Assembly (NCBI RefSeq): GCF_000092125.1 | Contig: NC_014212.1 | Coordinates: forward strand, 640,001-704,000 | Direction: 5' to 3' | Length of the DNA: 64,000 nucleotides | Source: Allomeiothermus silvanus DSM 9946 | GTDB lineage: Bacteria > Deinococcota > Deinococci > Deinococcales > Thermaceae | Part shown: positions 48,394 through 59,146 of the stretch, piece by piece | How positions within the stretch are numbered: the stretch's first letter is position 1 | Layout of the letters: every line of letters starts with the position of its first letter | Notes under the pieces: model-generated | Seen by the model: only the letters and a program-made list of their open reading frames with translations | Told to the model about the DNA's origin: nothing | Database searches by the model: none | Program-made: the position numbers and the translations under genes

Positions 48394-50820
48394 ATGTTGG
48401 ATAGCGTGTTTATAGCCCTATCGGGTCTGGTTCATGACATCGGGAAGCTATATCAGAGGGCATTTTGGAGCCGTGCCCCAGAGGGATGGGCCTTCGATGA
48501 CCACAGCCACCCGGCCTATACGGCGTGGGCATTGCAGCGCCACCACCGTCTATTTCGCAAGGTAGGCCTCGAACCGAGCCTCCTGCAAGAAACTGCCACC
48601 CGCCACCATGAGGGCTGGCGCGACAAGCCTCGGTACCAGCCCCAGACCCCCGAGCAGTGGTGCGTAGCTTTGGCTGATACCTATGCCTCGCGCGAGCGGC
48701 AAGAGTCGGATGGGCAGAGCGGGCATACCCCCGATACCCCGCTCAAATCGGTCTTTGCCAACCTGCGGGTGCAAGATGCTTACGGCCAGCGGAACTGGGG
48801 CTACAGCATGGTGCGGGAGCGTCAGGAGGTGGGCCAGAAACCGGGCGAAGCCTACCCGGAGCCTGTACCTAACGTCTCACAGGACACCTACAGGCGGGTG
48901 GCTGAGCGGCTGGATGCACGTCTGGCGGAACTGTCCAGGTTCACCCTGAGCCCAGAAGCTTTGCTTTCGAACCTGCTGGGCGTCTTCCAGGAGCTTTTGT
49001 GGAACGTGCCCTCCGATACCCAGGGCGAGCCGGATGTATCGCTCTTTGACCACCTGCGCCTGACCGGGGCCATCGCGGCGGCGCTGTGGGCCTACCACGG
49101 GGGGTCGCCGAGCATCGAAGCCCTTCGGGACGAGAGCCCCGAAAAGTTCTTGCTGGTGCTGGGTGATCTGGGCGGCATCCAGAGCCACATCTACCGCATC
49201 CAGGGGGCCCAGACCGGGGTGGGAGGCCTGGCCAAGCGGCTCCGGGCGCGCAGCCTCGAGGTCTCCCTGGCTGCCGAGGCGAAGGGGCTCGACCTGCTGG
49301 AGCGCACCGGGTTCACCCCCTTGCAGCGCATCATGAGCGCGGGGGGCAAGTTCTACTTGCTCTTGCCCAACACCGAGGCCGTGCTGAAGGCGCTCGATGA
49401 GGTGCGCCGGGAGTGGGAGGCGTGGGCCCTGGAGCAAGGGGCGACCCTGCTGCCCTTCCTGGCGGCGTACGCCTTCGCCCCCTCGGGTTTCAAGTCCTTC
49501 AGCCGGGTGCTGGGGGAAGCCCACCGCAAGCTGGCCGAAGCCAAGCTCAACCCGCTCTCCAGCCGTTTGAACACGCCCTATCTGAGCGTGGGGGGCGTCA
49601 GCCTGCGCCCCTGCCGAGCCTGCGGGGTCCGGCCCGCCAAGTCCGCCACCAACGAGCTTTGCTATGGCTGCGAGCGCGACGCGCACCTGGGCCGCCTGGT
49701 TCCCAAGCGGAAGGAGGTGGGGTTTTTTGTGCCGGAGGCACCCGAACCCCACTACCGCTTCCCTGCTTCGCGGGCAGCGCTCGAGCCCTCTGATACCTAC
49801 ACCCTGCGCACCCACCTCGAGTTCACCCCCGCGCCCCATCCTTGGGAGGTGCGGCTTTTGGCGGGGCATGTCCCCACCCTCAAGGATGCCCTGGGTACGG
49901 GGCGTTGGCGCAACCTGGCCGAGTACCAGGCCTGGGCTAAGGAGCAGAAGCTTTGGGAAGAGGAGGAAGACGGGCGCGAAGCCGGCGACCCCCTCACCCT
50001 GGCCGAGCTGGCCGAGTTCTCTACCGGGACCAAATACCTCGGAGCCCTGATGCTCGATGCCGACCGCATGGGCGAGGCCTTTGCCAGCGGCCTTATGGAT
50101 GAAAAGGGCCACGACCGCAGCAGCCCCAGCCGCACCGCCAGCCTATCGCGGATGCTCGAGCTCTTCTTCGCGGGCGAGGTGCTGGAGCTGATCAAGAACC
50201 CCAAAACCTACCAACATCGCCTGGGCTGGGATGGGCTAAAAGCTAGAGAAAAGGCTGAGCGCTATCCCCTCATCTATTCGGTCTATGCCGGGGGCGACGA
50301 CCTCTTCTTGCTGGGGCCGTGGGATGTGCTCTTGGAGTTTGCCCTGGATCTGGAAGCCCTCTATCGGCAATTTACCCAGCACCCCAAGCTCACCCTTTCG
50401 GGCGGCTTTGTGCTGGTAAATCCCTCGCTGCCCATCCCGCTTTTGGCGGAGGCGGTGCAGGAAGCCGAAAAGGCCGCCAAAGCTGCCGGGCGCGACCGGC
50501 TCCACCTCTTCGGCCAGAGCGTGCCCTGGGGCGAGCTGCGCAGCTTGGTGCCCTGGGTACGCGACTTCCAGCGCCACCTAAACGCCGAAAGCAAGGCGGG
50601 CATGACCAGCGCTCTGGCCTACCGCCTGCTCAGGTTGTGGAAGCAGCACCAGCAGGACGACCCGGCCCGGCGTATGCGTTACAAGCCGCTTTTGGCTTAT
50701 ACCTTGCGCGAGCGTAGCGAGGAAATACGCCAGCACTACCTACAGCTAACCGACCATACCCATATGGCCTGGGAGCACCTGCCGGTGTGGGTGCAGTGGG
50801 GGCTTTATCTGGAGCGATAA
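48394..50820 (+). CDS. csm1: Type III-A Cas10/Csm1
   Basis: The 808-aa large subunit of the Csm effector complex has an HD nuclease motif H14-D15 (GLVHDIGK) for ssDNA cleavage and a zinc-binding four-Cys cluster at about 407-425 (CRAC...CYGC). The second Palm domain carries GGDD at 633-636 (YAGGDDLFLLG), the active site that makes cyclic oligoadenylates when target RNA is bound. Both activities look intact. It opens the cas operon; probably leaderless (TAGAAT eight bases before the ATG). Confidence 0.96.
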   Translation: MLDSVFIALSGLVHDIGKLYQRAFWSRAPEGWAFDDHSHPAYTAWALQRHHRLFRKVGLEPSLLQETATRHHEGWRDKPRYQPQTPEQWCVALADTYASRERQESDGQSGHTPDTPLKSVFANLRVQDAYGQRNWGYSMVRERQEVGQKPGEAYPEPVPNVSQDTYRRVAERLDARLAELSRFTLSPEALLSNLLGVFQELLWNVPSDTQGEPDVSLFDHLRLTGAIAAALWAYHGGSPSIEALRDESPEKFLLVLGDLGGIQSHIYRIQGAQTGVGGLAKRLRARSLEVSLAAEAKGLDLLERTGFTPLQRIMSAGGKFYLLLPNTEAVLKALDEVRREWEAWALEQGATLLPFLAAYAFAPSGFKSFSRVLGEAHRKLAEAKLNPLSSRLNTPYLSVGGVSLRPCRACGVRPAKSATNELCYGCERDAHLGRLVPKRKEVGFFVPEAPEPHYRFPASRAALEPSDTYTLRTHLEFTPAPHPWEVRLLAGHVPTLKDALGTGRWRNLAEYQAWAKEQKLWEEEEDGREAGDPLTLAELAEFSTGTKYLGALMLDADRMGEAFASGLMDEKGHDRSSPSRTASLSRMLELFFAGEVLELIKNPKTYQHRLGWDGLKAREKAERYPLIYSVYAGGDDLFLLGPWDVLLEFALDLEALYRQFTQHPKLTLSGGFVLVNPSLPIPLLAEAVQEAEKAAKAAGRDRLHLFGQSVPWGELRSLVPWVRDFQRHLNAESKAGMTSALAYRLLRLWKQHQQDDPARRMRYKPLLAYTLRERSEEIRQHYLQLTDHTHMAWEHLPVWVQWGLYLER

Positions 50821-50829
50821 GGAGGAGAT

Positions 50830-51240
50830 ATGGAGTTCTATCAGGACAGGCAAAACAAAATTCTGCGACCGGGACTCTTTGATACAGACGCTAGGAAGGA
50901 CGCCGACGGGGTACAAGGTATCCAATCCAGCCAGTTCCGTAACTACTTTCATGAGCTTCGCACGCTGGAGGCTAACTATGAGCGCGAGGCCAAGGCTAAC
51001 TCCAAACTGGCTTTTGCCAAGCTGGTTCCGCAGCTTGAGCTTCTAAAGGCCAAACTAGCCTACGGGCAACGCAAGAATGGCCCTCTGCAAAACGCAGGCG
51101 GCTTTGTCAGCCTGATGAACCGGTTGATCGATGCAGGCAAAAAGAGCCCCGAGGACTTCGAAGCCATGATGCAGTACCTCGAGGCTGTGCTGGCCTACTT
51201 CTACGCTAAGGAAGGGCAAAACCAGGGGGGACGTAGATGA
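50830..51240 (+). CDS. csm2: Csm2 small subunit
   Basis: The 136-aa alpha-helical protein (SSQFRNYFHELRTLEANYEREAKANSKLAFAKLVPQLELLKAKLAYG...GGFVSLMNRLIDAG...FEAMMQYLEAVLAYFYA) is a standard Csm2, forming the inner filament of the complex. GGAGGAG precedes the ATG. It overlaps csm3 by 4 bp. Confidence 0.93.
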   Translation: MEFYQDRQNKILRPGLFDTDARKDADGVQGIQSSQFRNYFHELRTLEANYEREAKANSKLAFAKLVPQLELLKAKLAYGQRKNGPLQNAGGFVSLMNRLIDAGKKSPEDFEAMMQYLEAVLAYFYAKEGQNQGGRR

Positions 51241-51914
51241 GACTAATTGGTTACAAGCGCATTCACGGCATTATCCGGCTCAAAAGCGGCCTGCGCATCG
51301 GCATGAGCAAGGATCAGATGGCTATCGGGGATGTGGACAACCCGGTGATCCGCAACCCCCTCACCGAAGAGCCCTACATCCCCGGCTCCTCGCTCAAGGG
51401 GAAGATGCGGTATTTGCTCGAGTGGCACCTAGGGGGTGACTATATTTCCCGCTCGAGCGAGAGACATGTCTACGTGCCTGACGACCCGAAAGATCCGGTT
51501 GGGCGTATCTTTGGTAGTGCGCCTAGTAACGAGGCCCAGCGCCGAATTGCCCAAGAGCGCGGCCCCACCCGCCTGCTGGTGCGCGATGCTTACCTAACCC
51601 CCAATTCCAAGCAGGCCCTCGAGCGCATGACCGCCCGCGGCGGCTACCTGACCGAGGTCAAGCAGGAGGTCTTCATCCCCCGCATCGGCGGCAATGCCAA
51701 CCCTCGCACTGCCGAGCGCGTGCCCGCAGGGGCCGAGTTCGCCTTTGAGATGGTCTACCGGGTGATGGACACCGGCGACGGCGGCCAGACCGACCGGGCG
51801 AACTTCCATCACGTTGAGAAGGCCCTGGAGCTTCTGCAACTCGATGGGCTGGGGGGCTACATCAGCCGGGGCTATGGGCAGGTAGAACTCGACTACCGGG
51901 TTGAGGAAAAATGA
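51237..51914 (+). CDS. csm3: Csm3 backbone RNase subunit
   Basis: The 225-aa RAMP protein carries AIGDVDNPVIRNPLTEEPYIPGSSLKGKMRYLLEW. D34 (in DVDNPV) matches the catalytic Asp that cuts target RNA every six bases, so target RNase activity should be present. The glycine-rich loop GLGGYISRGYGQVEL is near the C-terminus. Confidence 0.95.
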   Translation: MRLIGYKRIHGIIRLKSGLRIGMSKDQMAIGDVDNPVIRNPLTEEPYIPGSSLKGKMRYLLEWHLGGDYISRSSERHVYVPDDPKDPVGRIFGSAPSNEAQRRIAQERGPTRLLVRDAYLTPNSKQALERMTARGGYLTEVKQEVFIPRIGGNANPRTAERVPAGAEFAFEMVYRVMDTGDGGQTDRANFHHVEKALELLQLDGLGGYISRGYGQVELDYRVEEK

Positions 51915-52798
51915 GGGTCAAAGCTTTTCACCTGGCGCTGGGGAGCATCAGCGCCCCGCCCAGTGCCCCTACTCTGTGGGGCCACCTAGCCTGGTGGGTG
52001 CGCTACACCCAGGGCGAGAGGGCCTTGTTGGAGTGGCTCGAGGCCTTTAGGCACGACCCGCCTTTTCTCATCTCCTCGGCTTTCCCTACCGGCTACCTGC
52101 CGCGCCCGCTGTTGCCCCAGGTGCGGATAGACGACACCGCCAAGCGCAAATCGCTCAAAAGCATCCGCTACCTAAGTTTTGCGACTTTTGCACGGGTAAT
52201 CCGGGAAGGCGAGCAAGCTTTGCTAGAATCACCGGAACTCAAAGAGAAGAAGGCTCCCAAGGTGACCCTGGCCACCCAGACCCGGGTGGGCATCAACCGT
52301 ACTACCGGCACCGCCCAGGAGGGCATCCTCTTTACCGACCGGGTGTACTGGCTGGGCGACCAAGAAAAAAAGCAGACCTGGACGGTCTACGTGCAGATTC
52401 GCCAGCCAGCCGATTACCTGGAACAAGCCCTGCGAGAGATCGGCACCTTCGGTTACGGCGGCAAGGCCAGCGTGGGGCTGGGGCGCTTTGAGGTGGTGGA
52501 TACCCAGGAGATGGACTTACCCGAGGCCCCTAGCCCCACCCACTACGTCACCCTTTCCCCCACCTTGCCTAAGGGCGAGGGGTACTGGGCCCTGGAAACC
52601 TACTGGGGCCGCCTGGGGGGGCATTACGCCCAGGCCGAGACCCCCTTCAAGCGCCCGTACCTGCGGGCCAAAGAGGGCAGTGTCTTTCGGGAGCAACCCA
52701 CCGCGGGCCTTCTGGACGTGACCCCTGAGCCTGCTCCGGAGGGCGGGGTAAAGATCTGGGAGTACCTGTATGCCTTTCCGCTGGGGGTGCGGGTATGA
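51911..52798 (+). CDS. csm4: Csm4
   Basis: This 295-aa RAMP subunit binds the crRNA 5' handle and Cas10. It has SAPPSAPTLWGHLAWWVRY near the start and GTFGYGGKASVGLGRFEV as the G-rich loop. ATGA overlaps on both sides. Confidence 0.92.
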   Translation: MRVKAFHLALGSISAPPSAPTLWGHLAWWVRYTQGERALLEWLEAFRHDPPFLISSAFPTGYLPRPLLPQVRIDDTAKRKSLKSIRYLSFATFARVIREGEQALLESPELKEKKAPKVTLATQTRVGINRTTGTAQEGILFTDRVYWLGDQEKKQTWTVYVQIRQPADYLEQALREIGTFGYGGKASVGLGRFEVVDTQEMDLPEAPSPTHYVTLSPTLPKGEGYWALETYWGRLGGHYAQAETPFKRPYLRAKEGSVFREQPTAGLLDVTPEPAPEGGVKIWEYLYAFPLGVRV

Positions 52799-53925
52799 GC
52801 TTTCTGGAGAGCTACCGCTTAGAACTCGAGACCTTGGGCCCCATTCACGTAGGCACCGGGGAGGCTTTTCCGGCCTATAGTTACTTGGTGGACGAGGCTC
52901 AAAAGGAAGCCCTGATCCTGGACGCGGGGCGGCTGCTCGAGCTGTTGAGCGAAACCCAACGGGAAAACTACCTGCAGGCAGTGGCGCAAGGTCCCAAGCA
53001 AGCCCAGAAGAGCCTGCAGTCGCTGTGGGGTGGCGGCCTGCTAGACCCTACCCCGGCCATCGTGCGCCGCCTCCCCGCGACCCCAGCCTTCATCAATACC
53101 GTCAAGAACGCCACCGACGCCGCGGGTCTGGAGTTTCGCCCCTTGCCCAGGAGCCCGCTGGGGGCTTACCTGCCGGGCTCGAGCCTCAAGGGGGCTTTGC
53201 GCACGGCCTGGCTGTTCAAGCGGGTGGTGCAGCAAGGGCGGGATATCGAGTACAAAGGTCGCTGGCAATGGGGCCAGAAGGTTCAAGGAGGCGAGTGGCC
53301 CCTCATCCAGCTGCCCGAGAGGATATCAACCCCTGTTGCACAAGCCTTTGAGGCCCTGGTGCTGGACTACGTCACCGAACGCAGCCCCAACCTTCACCGC
53401 GACCCCTTCCGCCAGGTCCGCGTGAGCGACAGCGAACCCAGCGAGAACCTTTTGCTCAACCGCATCGGGGTGTTTCACCCCAGGGGTCAGATGGACCAGA
53501 CCGTAATCCTGGCCGAGATGTTCCGGGTGGGAACCAAGCTCCAAGCCACCCTGCGCCTGCACGTGGGTTTAGCCCAGCAAAGGCACAAAGACACGGTTTC
53601 CCACGCCATTTCAGCCCAAGCGCTGGCCGAGGCCTGCCGGGAGTATTACCTCGAGGTGCTTCACCTCGAGCGAGAATACGCGCAAAATCACGGTCTTGCA
53701 CAGGCGCTCAAGGTCTACGACGCTATGGCACAGCGGCTGGAGGCGGAGGAGTACCTTTTCCCGCTGCGCATCGGCTTTGGGTCGGGGCGCATGTCCATCC
53801 GGCTGGCGCTCTTGCTCGATGGGGAGGAGGGCCAGGAGCCCAAAACCCGCAAGACCGCTGGGCACTCCAGCCCCAAAGATGGCTTCCCGCTAGGCTGGGC
53901 CATTGCCAGGCTCGAGCCTTACTGA
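52795..53925 (+). CDS. csm5: Csm5
   Basis: The 376-aa RAMP protein at the crRNA 3' end starts LETLGPIHVGTGEAFPAYSYL and contains LPGSSLKGALRTAWLFKRVV and FGSGRMSIRLALLL. It caps the complex and recruits 3'-trimming nucleases. It ends just before the vapB promoter. Confidence 0.92.
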   Translation: MSFLESYRLELETLGPIHVGTGEAFPAYSYLVDEAQKEALILDAGRLLELLSETQRENYLQAVAQGPKQAQKSLQSLWGGGLLDPTPAIVRRLPATPAFINTVKNATDAAGLEFRPLPRSPLGAYLPGSSLKGALRTAWLFKRVVQQGRDIEYKGRWQWGQKVQGGEWPLIQLPERISTPVAQAFEALVLDYVTERSPNLHRDPFRQVRVSDSEPSENLLLNRIGVFHPRGQMDQTVILAEMFRVGTKLQATLRLHVGLAQQRHKDTVSHAISAQALAEACREYYLEVLHLEREYAQNHGLAQALKVYDAMAQRLEAEEYLFPLRIGFGSGRMSIRLALLLDGEEGQEPKTRKTAGHSSPKDGFPLGWAIARLEPY

Positions 53926-53943
53926 AAGCCTGTTTTTTCAGCC

Positions 53944-53949
53944 TATACT
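53944..53949 (+). promoter_or_regulatory. -10 box of vapBC (leaderless)
   Basis: TATACT, six bases, ATG of vapB. A small hairpin CTGAAA...TTTCAG (53922-53941) lies just before it, over the end of csm5. The toxin-antitoxin pair can thus be transcribed separately from the csm genes. Confidence 0.5.
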
Positions 53950-53955
53950 GAATCC

Positions 53956-54210
53956 ATGGCCCTCACCGTCAAAAACCTCGAGGTCGAGTGCCTGGCCGAG
54001 GAAGTAGCCTGCCTGGCGGGCGAGACCAAGACCGAGGCCATCCGCAAGGCCCTTTTGGAGCGCAAGGCCCGGCTGGCCCGCCCCGAGCGCCCGCGCAGCG
54101 AGGTCATCGAGGAGTTTCTGCGTGATATGCAAGACTTACTGCCCAAGGGCCGCCGTCCTACTAAAGGAGAAGAGGAAGAGATCCTGGGCTTTGGCCCGGA
54201 GGGCTACTGA
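53956..54210 (+). CDS. vapB: VapB-like antitoxin
   Basis: The 84-aa protein fits the Rv0623/PSK-type antitoxin family: MALTVKNLEVECLAEEVACLAGETKTEAIRKALLERKARL is the ribbon-helix-helix DNA-binding part. The C-terminal part (EFLRDMQDLLPKGRRPTKGEEEEILGF) binds the toxin. Its stop overlaps the vapC ATG by one base. Confidence 0.85.
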   Translation: MALTVKNLEVECLAEEVACLAGETKTEAIRKALLERKARLARPERPRSEVIEEFLRDMQDLLPKGRRPTKGEEEEILGFGPEGY

Positions 54211-54551
54211 TGGTGCTGGGCAGCTCGGTGCTGCTGCATATTCTTTTCCGCGAGCCGGGTTACCCGGAGGTTGCGCGCAAGCTGAACGGGGCTTCGCAGC
54301 TTTTGGTAGGGGCTCCAACCCTAGTCGAAACGGCCATGGTGCTGATTCATCGGGAAGGTGATACGCAGTTACTCGTACTGGAAGACTTTTTGCGCCGCCT
54401 CCGGGTAGAATCGGCTTTCCGGCGCTTTGGCAAGGGCCGCCACCCCGCGGCCCTCAACCTTGGCGACTGCCTGAGTTACGCGGTGGCCAAGGTAAGCGGC
54501 CTGCCCCTGGCCTACGTGGGCGACGACTTCGCCCATACTGACCTGGCATGA
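54210..54551 (+). CDS. vapC: VapC-like PIN-domain protein with a changed active site
   Basis: The 113-aa protein aligns with VapC RNases throughout: E40 (APTLVETAMVL), FGKGRHPAALNLGDCLSYAVAK with D86, and YVGDDFAHTD with D105/D106. The first PIN Asp, expected as MVLDSSxLL, is Gly here (MVLGSSVLL, GGC in place of GAC). Loss of this metal ligand normally abolishes RNase activity, so the toxin is probably disarmed. Its stop overlaps the cas6 ATG by 4 bp. Confidence 0.85.
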   Translation: MVLGSSVLLHILFREPGYPEVARKLNGASQLLVGAPTLVETAMVLIHREGDTQLLVLEDFLRRLRVESAFRRFGKGRHPAALNLGDCLSYAVAKVSGLPLAYVGDDFAHTDLA

Positions 54552-55351
54552 TGCTCGCGGCCCTCGTCCTCCCCCTGGAAGGCCAAGCCCGCCCCGACCC
54601 CGACGGCTGGCGTGGCCTGGTGTATGGATTGCTCAAGGAGATAGACCCCGAGCTGCACACCGCCCAGCACAACCCCTTCAGCCTGGGGCTGGGCGGAGCC
54701 GAGGGGCAGTGGTGGGTGCGGATTGCTCTGCTGGAGGAGGGGCTTTACGCCCGGCTCTCGCCGCACCTATTTGGCCTGGTGGGCCAGAGCGTCAAACTCA
54801 AAGAGCCCTTTCGGGTCAGAGCGGTGCTGCAGGAAGAGCACCCCTGGGCCAGCCTGAGCACCTATCCCCGGCTCTTCCAGGGCCAGGCCAGCCCCAGCCT
54901 GGGCCTCCAGTTTGCCAGCCCCACCTTCTTCCGCCGCAAGGGGAACAGCTACCCCCTGCCCGAGCCTAAGCTGGTCTTCGACTCGCTCACCCAGCGCTGG
55001 AATGCCTTTGCCCCGGTGAAGGTACCCCCCGAAATGGCCGAAACCTGGGAGCGCGTGACCATCACCCGCCTCCAGGGCCACACCCAGGCCATCCGGCCCA
55101 ACCCGGACGAACGAGGGGTGGGTTTTGTGGGCCGGGTGGTGTACCACCTACCCGCTGCCAAGCCTACCGAGGCCCAGTGGATGCAGGCTTTGGGGCGCTT
55201 TGCTTTTTATGCCGGGGTGGGGGCCAAGACCAGCCTAGGGTTTGGGCGGGTACGGGGGTTTGACCCCATACTCAAGGAGGAATCTGCCAATGGAAGACTT
55301 GATGCAGAAGATTCATCTAGCTTGGCAACACCTCAAGACCCAGGAGCTTGA
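54548..55351 (+). CDS. cas6: Cas6 crRNA-processing endoribonuclease
   Basis: The 267-aa two-RAMP-domain protein has LHTAQHNPFSLGLGG (likely catalytic His region) and the Cas6 G-rich loop FYAGVGAKTSLGFGRVRGFD. It should cut the repeat transcript 8 nt before the repeat end to leave the ATTGCAAC handle. The last 20 residues overlap the next gene. Translation is coupled to vapC. Confidence 0.92.
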   Translation: MMLAALVLPLEGQARPDPDGWRGLVYGLLKEIDPELHTAQHNPFSLGLGGAEGQWWVRIALLEEGLYARLSPHLFGLVGQSVKLKEPFRVRAVLQEEHPWASLSTYPRLFQGQASPSLGLQFASPTFFRRKGNSYPLPEPKLVFDSLTQRWNAFAPVKVPPEMAETWERVTITRLQGHTQAIRPNPDERGVGFVGRVVYHLPAAKPTEAQWMQALGRFAFYAGVGAKTSLGFGRVRGFDPILKEESANGRLDAEDSSSLATPQDPGA

Positions 55352-56690
55352 AGGCGCAAGGGCACAGGAACTTTATAACCAAACCGTCTGGCCGCTGCTG
55401 CTCGAGCTTTGGCGACTGGAGCCGCAAGTGCATCCTTTGCGGGAGAGCTTCGATGTATCCATCCATACTCTAGGCACCAGCCCCGAAGCCACCACCCTGG
55501 CTGCCTTGGGGTTGGGCGCAGACGAGATATACGTGTTGCACACTCCCGAGAGCCGGCGCTACCTGGCTCAGCTCCAGCAAGACCTAGGCCGCCCGGTATA
55601 CCCCATCGAGATAGACAAAAGCGATGTAACCCGGCTCTACCAAGTGGTAGGTGAGCAAGTGCGCAAGCATCCGGGCAAAAAGATTGCCCTTGATCTCACC
55701 AGTGGTACCAAGGCCATGAGTGCAGGGATGGCCGCAGCGGGTTACTTCTTGCAAAGGGTGCACCCCAGTTTGCGGGTGGCTTATGTGGACAACGATGCCT
55801 TTGATGTGGCGTTGCGTAAACCAGTAGCCGGCACCGAGAAACTCATCCTGCTGCCCAACCCCCACGAGGTACTGGGCGACCTTGACGAGCACCTGGCTCA
55901 GGAGTTTTACAAAGCGCGGGAGTTCGGCAAGGCCGCCGACCGCTACAACGAACTTCGCCGAAAGACCGGTCAGGGCGGCTTTGAGGTGTATGCAGCGCTG
56001 TGCGAGATGTACCAGCGGTGGTACGCCTTGGACTTTGAGGGCGCGCTGAGCAATGCGGAGCGCCTGTTGAAATTTTTGAGCCAGGATGCTTACCGCAATC
56101 ATCCGCTAAACCTTCGCGCCCAACGCATAAAAGAGCAGAAAGAAGGCCTCGAGGGCATCGTTAGTCTCCTTAAGTCGCAAAGTTTTGCCGAGAAAAAGGA
56201 CATTCTTTGGTTGACTGCAACGCTGCTACAACTGGGTGATGAGCGCAAAGAACGGCAGCCGGTCTTGGCGGCGCTCTACTTTTATCGGGCCCTCGAGCTC
56301 ATCTTGCAGCACCGTATTGCTGTTAACGGCAGAAGCAACGACAATCCAGTACTGACCCCCGAGGAGCAAGACCACCTGCGCCAAAGTCTGGCCAGATGGC
56401 TGAAAAGATCTTTGGAGGAGATAAAGCCCATCACAAAGTTGGGTTTGCTAGAGAGTATGGCCCTATTGCGTTATTTGGAAGACCCCCTACTTGATAATTT
56501 CTCCGAAAATGATTTGCAGGGCTACCAAGGGATGTTGCAAAGCCGCAACAAAAGCCTTCTCATCCATGGTCTCGAGGTGAGCAAAAAAGGCGATGTGGAA
56601 AAACTTCAGCAGTTTGCGCGAAAGCTGTACCTAACCACACGCGAAGAGGCCAAGCTGGCGTTGTCGGTTGAACCGGTAGAGCTGATGTGA
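55290..56690 (+). CDS. csm6: Csm6-type CARF-HEPN ribonuclease (first copy)
   Basis: The 466-aa protein has a CARF domain with the ligand motif DLTSGTKAM (135-143) for cyclic oligoadenylate. A helical part follows, then a C-terminal HEPN RNase with R419-x6-H426 (RNKSLLIHG). AAGGAGG at 55274-55280 selects ATG 55290; the frame is open to 55242. It should act as a second-messenger-activated, non-specific RNase in Cas10 signalling. It overlaps cas6 and ends in a GTGA overlap with cas1. Confidence 0.9.
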   Translation: MEDLMQKIHLAWQHLKTQELEGARAQELYNQTVWPLLLELWRLEPQVHPLRESFDVSIHTLGTSPEATTLAALGLGADEIYVLHTPESRRYLAQLQQDLGRPVYPIEIDKSDVTRLYQVVGEQVRKHPGKKIALDLTSGTKAMSAGMAAAGYFLQRVHPSLRVAYVDNDAFDVALRKPVAGTEKLILLPNPHEVLGDLDEHLAQEFYKAREFGKAADRYNELRRKTGQGGFEVYAALCEMYQRWYALDFEGALSNAERLLKFLSQDAYRNHPLNLRAQRIKEQKEGLEGIVSLLKSQSFAEKKDILWLTATLLQLGDERKERQPVLAALYFYRALELILQHRIAVNGRSNDNPVLTPEEQDHLRQSLARWLKRSLEEIKPITKLGLLESMALLRYLEDPLLDNFSENDLQGYQGMLQSRNKSLLIHGLEVSKKGDVEKLQQFARKLYLTTREEAKLALSVEPVELM

Positions 56691-57658
56691 CCCTCCACCT
56701 CACCGAGCAGTCCTCCACCCTGCGCCTCAGAGCGGGGCGGCTTTTGGTGGAGCTGGACGAGCAAATCCTGGCCGAGCTTCCGGCCCGCAAGGTGCGGGGG
56801 GTGGTGGTCTGGGGTAATGTGCGGCTCACCACCCCGGCGCTGGCCTTTTTGCTGCGCCAGGGGGTGCCGGTGCTATACGCCACCTTGGAGGGTCAGCTTT
56901 ACGGGCAGGCCCAGGCCCCCCAGAGCCTTGCCCCCCAAGTGCTGCGGGCGCAGATGCAGGCTCAGCAAGACCCTCTTCCGCTGGCCCAAAGCTTTTTGCA
57001 AGGCAAGCTGCGCTCGGAACTGATATTGCTCGAGCGCCTTTCCCGCCAAGCTCCCACCGCGCTCCAGCAGGCCGAGATCCGCGCCGCTCTTTCGGACCTA
57101 CCCCAAACCAGGGGCCTCGAGGCCCTGCGCGGGGTGGAGGGAAGCGCGGCTAGGGCTTACTTTGCCGGGCTTCAGGCGGTGCTCTCTCCCTACGGTTTCG
57201 CAGGGCGCAACCGCCGCCCACCCACCGACGCCGTAAACGCTGCACTCTCGTACGGCTATATGGTGCTTTTGGGCCGCACCCTGCTGGCCTTGCACCTGGC
57301 GGGCCTGCACCCCGAGTTGGGCCTTTTGCACGCCGAGGGCCGCCGGGCCCCCGCGTTGGCCTTCGACCTGATGGAGGAGTTCCGGGTTGCGGTGGTGGAT
57401 GTCATCGTTACGGCGGCCTTCCTACGCGGCGAGCTGGACCTCCAGAAGCACGCCGAGGCCCGTGACGGCGGAGTCTACCTAAACGACACTGGGCGCAAGG
57501 TGCTGCTCAAGCTGCTGGAAGGGCGCCTGGCCCAAGAGGCCCAACACCCCAAGGGCTTCCGCAAGCCCTACCAAGAACTCATCGAAGCCCAGGCCGCCCG
57601 GCTCAAGGCGGCCATCCTAGGGCGCGAAGCCTATACACCCTTCTACCTCTGGAGGTGA
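56687..57658 (+). CDS. cas1: Cas1 integrase
   Basis: The 323-aa spacer integrase has metal ligands E151, H215 (LGLLHAEG) and D227/E230 (FDLMEEFR). The N-terminal beta domain (LRAGRLLVELDEQILAELPARKVRGVVVWGNVRLTTPALAFL) is normal. GTG start inside the csm6 stop. Confidence 0.95.
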   Translation: MTLHLTEQSSTLRLRAGRLLVELDEQILAELPARKVRGVVVWGNVRLTTPALAFLLRQGVPVLYATLEGQLYGQAQAPQSLAPQVLRAQMQAQQDPLPLAQSFLQGKLRSELILLERLSRQAPTALQQAEIRAALSDLPQTRGLEALRGVEGSAARAYFAGLQAVLSPYGFAGRNRRPPTDAVNAALSYGYMVLLGRTLLALHLAGLHPELGLLHAEGRRAPALAFDLMEEFRVAVVDVIVTAAFLRGELDLQKHAEARDGGVYLNDTGRKVLLKLLEGRLAQEAQHPKGFRKPYQELIEAQAARLKAAILGREAYTPFYLWR

Positions 57659-57659
57659 A

Positions 57660-57935
57660 ATGCCCACCGAACGCTTCTACACCGTCACCTACGACATCCC
57701 CGACGATGGCCGCCGGGTCAAGGTGGCCAATACCCTCAAGAGCTTTGGCGAGCGGGTGCAGCTCTCGGTTTTTGAGTGCTGGCTCAACCCGGCCCAGCTC
57801 GAGCAGCTCAAGAAGCTGTTGCAGAAGAAGCTCAAGCCCACCGAGGACGGCGTGCGCATCTACCCCGTAGGGGGAACGGTGGAGGTACTGGGCGTAGGTC
57901 GGATTGCCGATAACCCCGACTACCTGATCCTCTAG
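57660..57935 (+). CDS. cas2: Cas2
   Basis: The 91-aa ferredoxin-fold protein (FYTVTYDIPDDGRRVKVANTLKSFGERVQLSVFECWL) forms the dimer at the core of the Cas1-Cas2 integrase; the Asp of YDIPDD is present. GGAGGTG directly precedes the ATG. Confidence 0.95.
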   Translation: MPTERFYTVTYDIPDDGRRVKVANTLKSFGERVQLSVFECWLNPAQLEQLKKLLQKKLKPTEDGVRIYPVGGTVEVLGVGRIADNPDYLIL

Positions 57936-58281
57936 CCGCAAAAATCTCTGCGCGATGGCACTCCTTCGCCAGTAAAAGCGGGCACTATCCCCGTCTGAAA
58001 CGGCACATAACCTGATTCTTAAAACACAGCGTTATGTTTTGCGCAAAATGTTATAATCACCCTAACGGGGCTGCCCGGAGCGTACCTTGAAAGCTAGCCT
58101 TTCCCTTCCTCATCGCCAATTCCTGCGACATAAAGTCTAAATGTGCAGGGAAGTAAGCATTCATCGGCATAATCCCCACTTTTTACCCCACTTATCCACA
58201 GGGGGGCTGTGGATAACTCCACTTTCTCATAAATCCACCCCCTGGCGCCTCTGTACGGGACGGGGTTTTGTGGGGTATGCT
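57936..58281 (+). promoter_or_regulatory. CRISPR leader region
   Basis: The 346-bp region between cas2 and the first repeat is more A+T-rich than its surroundings. An extended -10 TGTTATAAT lies at 58049-58057 and a TATGCT at 58276-58281 touches the first repeat. It contains the DnaA-box dyad at 58192-58216. Array polarity is set by its position and by the ATTGCAAC repeat end. Confidence 0.7.
58192..58216. promoter_or_regulatory. Perfect inverted pair of DnaA-box sequences in the leader
   Basis: TTATCCACA (58192-58200) and TGTGGATAA (58208-58216) are both exact matches to the DnaA consensus. They form 10-bp arms (with the flanking G/C) around GGGGG. No T-run follows, so it is not a terminator. 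Confidence 0.7.
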
Positions 58282-59146
58282 GTCGCAAACAAAAAGCCCC
58301 GTAAGGGGATTGCAACCCGCTTCGGCCAGGGCCAGGGCCGCCCCCGCGCCCATCACCAGTCGCAAACAAAAAGCCCCGTAAGGGGATTGCAACCAACCTG
58401 GATCGAGGAGCAGATCCAGCAACGAAATCCTGAAGGTCGCAAACAAAAAGCCCCGTAAGGGGATTGCAACCGGCGGCCTCGAACTCGCCGTCGATGAAGA
58501 GCTCCGCAGTAAGTCGCAAACAAAAAGCCCCGTAAGGGGATTGCAACAAGTTCCTCCTTACGCATCAGCTGCAAAAAAAGCTGAGTCGCAAACAAAAAGC
58601 CCCGTAAGGGGATTGCAACGTCGTTGTAACCATCGATGAATGTGACACTTACAGTGTAGGGTCGCAAACAAAAAGCCCCGTAAGGGGATTGCAACTTTAC
58701 GGACTCAGAAGTGAAGTCAAGGAAGTATATACCTGTCGCAAACAAAAAGCCCCGTAAGGGGATTGCAACAAGGACTTGCTGAAGCGCCTTATGCCTAGTT
58801 ACTAAGGTGTGTCGCAAACAAAAAGCCCCGTAAGGGGATTGCAACTTTCGTCATACTGTCATCTCCTTACCCTCGATTGTCGGGTCGCAAACAAAAAGCC
58901 CCGTAAGGGGATTGCAACGCTCGGCGCAGGCGAGAATTATCTTTTCGTCGAAGTTTAGCGTCGCAAACAAAAAGCCCCGTAAGGGGATTGCAACCCGTAC
59001 GCACAGTACTCGGCTATGCCGACGCCGAGCTCACAGGTCGCAAACCAAAAGCCCCGTAAGGGGATTGCAACGCAAAGAAGGACGGAAGGGTTAGTCGAGG
59101 GCTACGAACCGGTCGCAAACAAAAAGCCCCGTAAGGGGATTGCAAC
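58282..59146 (+). CRISPR. Type III-A CRISPR array, 12 repeats and 11 spacers
   Basis: The 35-bp repeats start GTCGCAAACAAAAAGCCCCG and end GGGGATTGCAAC. Starts: 58282, 58359, 58436, 58513, 58585, 58661, 58735, 58811, 58884, 58960, 59037, 59112. Spacers are 37-42 bp and all different by eye. The repeat forms CCCC-GTAA-GGGG, a short stem with a GNRA-type loop, and ends in the 8-base ATTGCAAC handle. All copies are identical except the eleventh, which has A to C at its tenth base. The leader is on the left and transcription rightward. Confidence 0.98.

Follow-up and report, generated by a model that had tools for sequence, protein, structure and literature searches.

Inverted DnaA boxes, very probably a selected DnaA site, recur at a set distance from the first repeat in a class of Deinococcota CRISPR leaders

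Inverted DnaA boxes in a type III-A CRISPR leader

The leader of a type III-A CRISPR array in Allomeiothermus silvanus DSM 9946 contains an inverted pair of nonamers, TTATCCACA-N7-TGTGGATAA, at positions 58192-58216 of the window (the whole 64,000-nucleotide stretch analyzed here, G000:C1:640001-704000), ending 65 bp before repeat 1. Comparison with homologous leaders makes it very probable that this dyad is a strongly selected site for DnaA. The reading that we favor, with a probability of about 0.47, is that these are selected inverted DnaA boxes and that DnaA bound to them would act on the leader-repeat junction, most likely by positioning Cas1-Cas2. The recurrence of this box pair, equally far from the array, in related bacteria of three families suggests that the replication initiator may help run the CRISPR system.

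The source genome comprises 3,721,669 bases, with a chromosome of 3,249,394 bases. In the window, a type III-A locus extends from cas10/csm1 to cas2 (48394-57935); next come a leader of about 230 bp, the array and a CARF-HEPN gene. The type III-A effector genes cas10/csm1, csm2, csm3, csm4 and csm5 (48394..53925; TIGR02578, TIGR01870, TIGR02582, TIGR01903 and TIGR01899), cas6 (54548..55351; TIGR01877), cas1 (56687..57658; TIGR00287, 219.9 bits) and cas2 (57660..57935; TIGR01573, 61.5 bits) lie on the + strand, as do the conserved leader (58052..58281), defined by alignment of 36 homologous leaders, and the array of 12 repeats of 35 bp (58282..59146), whose repeat 1 begins with GTCGCAAAC at 58282. 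A -10-like hexamer, TATGCT (58276..58281, + strand), abuts repeat 1 and is nearly invariant in the 36 leaders; it is a possible promoter element of the array, and a promoter scan returned no full sigma-70 site, and the hexamer lacks a good -35. Two CARF-HEPN genes (Csx1/Csm6-like, TIGR02710; 55242-56690 and 59167-60375) flank the adaptation genes and the array, one on each side.

Box 1 (TTATCCACA, 58192..58200, + strand) and box 2 (the same nonamer on the - strand, 58208..58216) both match the DnaA-box consensus TTATCCACA (PMC4451416) exactly, and are separated by the gap GGGGGGC (58201..58207). The initial annotation had placed the dyad correctly as TTATCCACAG-GGGGG-CTGTGGATAA at 58192-58216; its 10-bp arms are present here, but across leaders only the 9-mers are constant, whereas the tenth base and the G-run vary. 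The nonamer occurs twice in the 64-kb window, both times in the dyad, against 0.10 expected copies, and none of 100 shuffles reached two. A chance origin of the dyad is ruled out by these shuffles together with the phylum-wide distribution of box pairs and their conservation in 47 leaders.

Conservation of the dyad across homologous leaders

A core set of leaders was retrieved with a leader-repeat junction pattern that did not include the dyad. This dyad-blind search yielded 36 true leaders in 16 genomes from three genera, and both boxes were exact in 35 of them, the exception (G001:C5) carrying one mismatch; the three remaining matches were two isolated repeats without a leader and one repeat within an array. 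The set was widened through a phylum search (111 genomes) and through relatives of Cas1, with the junctions of a Marinithermus-like genome (G058) and a Truepera-radiovictrix-like genome (G108) searched afterwards. That later search returned four and five perfect junctions, respectively, and the pair was present with at most one mismatch in all nine leaders. The resulting 47 leaders of this array class span three families, with members from Allomeiothermus, Calidithermus and Meiothermus, the Marinithermus-like genome and two Truepera-like genomes.

Both nonamers are exact in 43 of the 47 leaders, and the other four carry one mismatch. Box 1 is exact in 45 leaders, with CTATCCACA in two; box 2 is likewise exact in 45, with one mismatch in two. 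The length (6-10 bp) and sequence of the gap differ among leaders: the four leaders of the Marinithermus-like genome have a gap of 10 bp (two exact pairs and two with CTATCCACA), the five of the T. radiovictrix-like genome a gap of 8 bp, and the leader of a Truepera MAG a gap of 9 bp. In the Meiothermus granaticius leader, box 2 reads TTATTCACA. Invariant columns in the 36 core leaders are concentrated in the boxes (17 of 18, versus 52 of 204 other leader columns), with a Fisher P of 7e-9 that is only indicative, because neighboring columns and related leaders are not independent.

The end of box 2 lies 61-66 bp from repeat 1 in all 47 leaders, whereas the distance from the dyad to the upstream CTTGAAA motif drifts between 67 and 106 bp; the position of the dyad thus follows the array side of the leader. 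Retention at a set distance from repeat 1, as befits a host-factor site, thus holds for the orthologous leaders (n = 47), Thermus leaders lacking the dyad. Four leaders of the T. radiovictrix-like genome (L259, L261-L263) also contain another exact TTATCCACA, the third, which lies 32 bp ahead of box 1 in direct orientation. In another genome, a fragmented cas1 lies just upstream of an array whose leader has the exact dyad (G018:C1:1407101-1407681; L232, L286); cas1 remnants are likewise found upstream of T. thermophilus arrays (PMC7515739).

Distribution within the genome and the phylum

The initial annotation had held that a random distribution of such dyads, or their absence from orthologous leaders, would speak against a leader function. 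Single copies of TTATCCACA show no clear enrichment in the A. silvanus genome (27, versus 22 for the reversed control), and inverted pairs with gaps of 0-20 bp number three versus none in the control. One of the three is the dyad described here, another lies at C1:2315140 in the leader of a second array of the same class (C1:2315220), with the same dyad, and the third is a coding-looking pair with a gap of 15 bp and no array nearby. Among the 111 Deinococcota genomes, 44 of 46 exact pairs with N6-N10 gaps are in leaders, counting one (G014:C86) by sequence alone, as its contig ends just after the dyad; the two non-leader pairs (L264, L273) have no array nearby. The distribution is hence not random, and a genome-wide or mobile repeat is ruled out by the near confinement of exact N6-N10 pairs to leaders. 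Of the pairs with gaps of 11-20 bp, those examined are not in leaders: they were located ahead of dnaA (N14), within an oriC-like cluster or in sequence that is probably coding.

The dyad is confined to one class of arrays. In nine of nine arrays associated with other Cas1 types, in A. silvanus and its relatives, no DnaA box with up to one mismatch was found within 300 bp. Across 93 arrays near Cas1 relatives, mostly cyanobacterial, TTWTCCACA boxes are rightly placed only in four Deinococcota arrays; the box pair is absent from the 89 arrays of non-Deinococcota type, two Calothrix arrays having a lone TGTGGAAAA. These nine and 89 arrays rule out that the dyad is a feature of all CRISPR leaders.

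The dyad is present in orthologous leaders, so that the second condition of the initial annotation does not tell against it either, except that within the Thermaceae it does not extend to Thermus. Ten clearly homologous Thermus leaders contain no box, the best pair having 6-7 mismatches in 18 positions and the best single box at least two in nine, which rules out a feature of all Thermaceae. Thermus oriC nevertheless uses the same TTATCCACA, and Thermus Cas1 of this class is about 61% identical. The type III leaders of Thermus (L220-L233) share with the dyad-bearing ones their homology, TATAAT, the hairpin, CTTGAAA, TTCTCA(T/C)AAA, CCAGGACGG and the -10-like box at the repeat, but the place of the dyad is taken by a conserved block around TGTGCATATTCC / TGTGCATATTCCAAGCTTCATC, which may be read by a different factor. 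The lack of boxes in Thermus leaders of this class counts against the favored reading: the class does not require them in every genus, and T. thermophilus, whose type III arrays do acquire spacers (PMC7515739), shows that it can function without them. On the Cas1 tree, the dyad-bearing and Thermus proteins form one supported clade with three branches of unsettled order (Meiothermus-type, Thermus, and Truepera plus Marinithermus). The simplest reading is an ancestral dyad that was lost in Thermus, the alternative being a later origin of the dyad with transfer.

The protein reading the dyad and rival explanations

DnaA is highly likely to bind the leader dyad, judging from the sequence of the site and the proteins encoded in these genomes. 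The A. silvanus oriC contains six exact copies of the same 9-mer between dnaA and dnaN, and DnaA is the only protein with a Bac_DnaA_C domain in each of five genomes checked. The A. silvanus DnaA is present in a single copy, with PF08299 at 102 bits and a GRDHTTV motif, and its domain IV matches that of E. coli DnaA, for which the structure is known (1j1v). Conservation in the leaders stops exactly at the 9-mer, the tenth base being variable, and the gap is free in sequence, does not keep complementarity and differs by 4 bp in length among leaders. A 9-mer boundary with a free, variable gap therefore fits two separately bound monomers better than a rigid dimer or a stem. The leader boxes share their nonamer with the boxes in oriC and upstream of dnaA; they differ from oriC in forming only one inverted pair, far from the origin, with a gap of 6-10 bp and no evident AT-rich unwinding region. 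The initial annotation is thus supported in part. Its suggestion that DnaA may tie spacer capture or array transcription to replication stays a hypothesis, but its proposal of DnaA sites in the leader is well supported on several counts: the boxes are near-invariant in three families, phased to the repeat, bounded at the 9-mer and equal to the oriC box, and a sole protein with the matching domain is encoded in the five genomes.

The main and serious rival to a function in adaptation, which we nonetheless regard as rather unlikely, accepts DnaA as the ligand and has it regulate array transcription, activating or repressing a promoter with the -10 TATGCT abutting repeat 1, so that pre-crRNA would follow the replication state. 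DnaA is a transcription factor elsewhere, the nearly invariant TATGCT (without a good -35) directly precedes repeat 1, and Meiothermus also has an inverted box pair with a 14-bp gap upstream of dnaA. The fixed distance between dyad and repeat suits a repeat-proximal promoter equally well as the junction, and the dyad center would fall near -80 of a TATGCT-based start. However, the real promoter may be a second, extended -10-like site (TGCTATAAT) located about 225 bp upstream, which would leave the dyad downstream of the start, and Thermus retains the proximal element without the boxes.

The remaining explanations are less probable. That another protein reads the dyad, for example Cas1-Cas2 itself or a dimeric regulator, with the likeness to DnaA boxes a coincidence, seems improbable: type I-F leaders have inverted repeats read by Cas1-2/3 (PMC12259127) and the dyad is limited to one Cas1 class, but conservation coincides exactly with the 9-bp DnaA box, gaps that range from 6 to 10 bp do not resemble those of a rigid dimer site, and the chance that a conserved 9-mer equals the oriC box is small (4^9 = 262144 nonamers). 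We consider it very improbable that the boxes titrate DnaA or tune initiation, with placement in the leader incidental, as in the manner of datA and DARS, which are non-origin sites with DnaA boxes. Like these, the leader dyad is a non-origin DnaA-box site, and genomes carry up to six box-bearing leaders; unlike them, it is phased to the CRISPR repeat, recurs with each array and is missing where leaders are missing, with only two boxes per site in arrays whose number ranges freely from 0 to 6 per genome. Sites of the datA/DARS kind (DARS are covered in PMC4451416) are placed by replication function, independently of other elements, and the dyad instead occurs once per leader in phase with the repeat. 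Least probable of all is that the inverted repeat works as a hairpin in RNA or DNA. Complementarity between the boxes would give a stem of 9-12 bp, but no compensatory change was seen among the 47 leaders, each of the four arm variants breaks a pair, and the gap bases beside the arms keep no complementarity, whereas the short hairpin with which these leaders begin at their 5' end does covary. For want of compensatory change the hairpin was rejected, and the structural signal entertained in the initial annotation is disfavored by the same uncompensated arm changes and the unkept complementarity of the gap.

Proposed role in spacer adaptation

If DnaA binds, a role in adaptation is slightly favored on this analysis. 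DnaA would dock on the two boxes as two separate monomers and act from there on the junction of leader and repeat, at a distance of about six helical turns. Its most likely part would be architectural or in recruitment, folding the leader and placing Cas1-Cas2 where spacers are inserted, much as IHF does in types I-E and I-F, and its presence at the leader would link insertion to replication. Adaptation stands first in our ranking for three reasons: the host-factor sites known from leaders serve adaptation (PMC9048733, PMC12259127), the distance between dyad and junction is near six helical turns, and E. coli Cas1 foci vanish when DnaA cannot initiate (PMC10359635, PMC13244154). The loss of foci when DnaA46 cannot initiate (PMC10359635), however, shows a link to replication rather than to leader-bound DnaA.

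Correct integration requires host factors such as IHF (PMC9048733; PMC12259127). The leaders described here resemble the IHF-dependent leaders of types I-E and I-F in that a short, conserved and here putative host-factor site precedes repeat 1 by a set distance (PMC9048733, PMC12259127), and differ in belonging to a type III-A system and in having a 9-bp DnaA box in an inverted pair in place of an IHF site. A host-factor site in a leader is thus of a known kind, and DnaA as the likely factor is new. Within open-licence papers, which give weak evidence of absence, we found nothing that links DnaA boxes or DnaA binding with CRISPR leaders. For type III leaders, where we saw no host factor described, DnaA would become a candidate. 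Spacer capture in E. coli needs active replication, which has been explained by DNA structures left by replication; conservation of a DnaA site in the leader would tie the replication initiator directly, at the molecular level, to the CRISPR locus. A more specific and tentative version, to which we give less than an even chance, is that DnaA is a dedicated adaptation host factor in Deinococcota which, bound to the dyad, gates insertion by Cas1-Cas2 according to the replication state, for instance through the level of DnaA-ATP. If true, the replication initiator would license immune memory. Short and exact, the site occurs in cultivable species.

Other leader elements and DnaA-box clusters

The far end of the leader (58052-58092) contains a TATAAT box, a short covarying hairpin and an invariant CTTGA(A/C)A motif, elements that occupy the same place in relatives (L079-L116, L220-L233, L259-L263), including Thermus and Truepera. 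This region may constitute a distal promoter and the structured 5' end of the array transcript. The 5'-end hairpin changes on both sides among leaders (GCTAGA/TCTAGC, GTTGGA/TCCAAC, GCCGGG/CCCGGC). Directly upstream of the dyad, a second, imperfect inverted repeat of the AAAAGTGCGG...CCGCACTTTT type (approximately 58137-58190 of the window) is found in Meiothermus-type leaders (L081-L116), and from their alignment it too seems to change on both sides.

Away from leaders, the region immediately upstream of dnaA contains an inverted TTATCCACA pair separated by 14 bp at four Meiothermus loci (L036, L046, L047, L048), which suggests autoregulation. The A. silvanus genome also contains clusters of two to four copies of TTATCCACA away from oriC, at G000:C1:1223782-1223865, 1003209-1003228 and 2893940-2893960.
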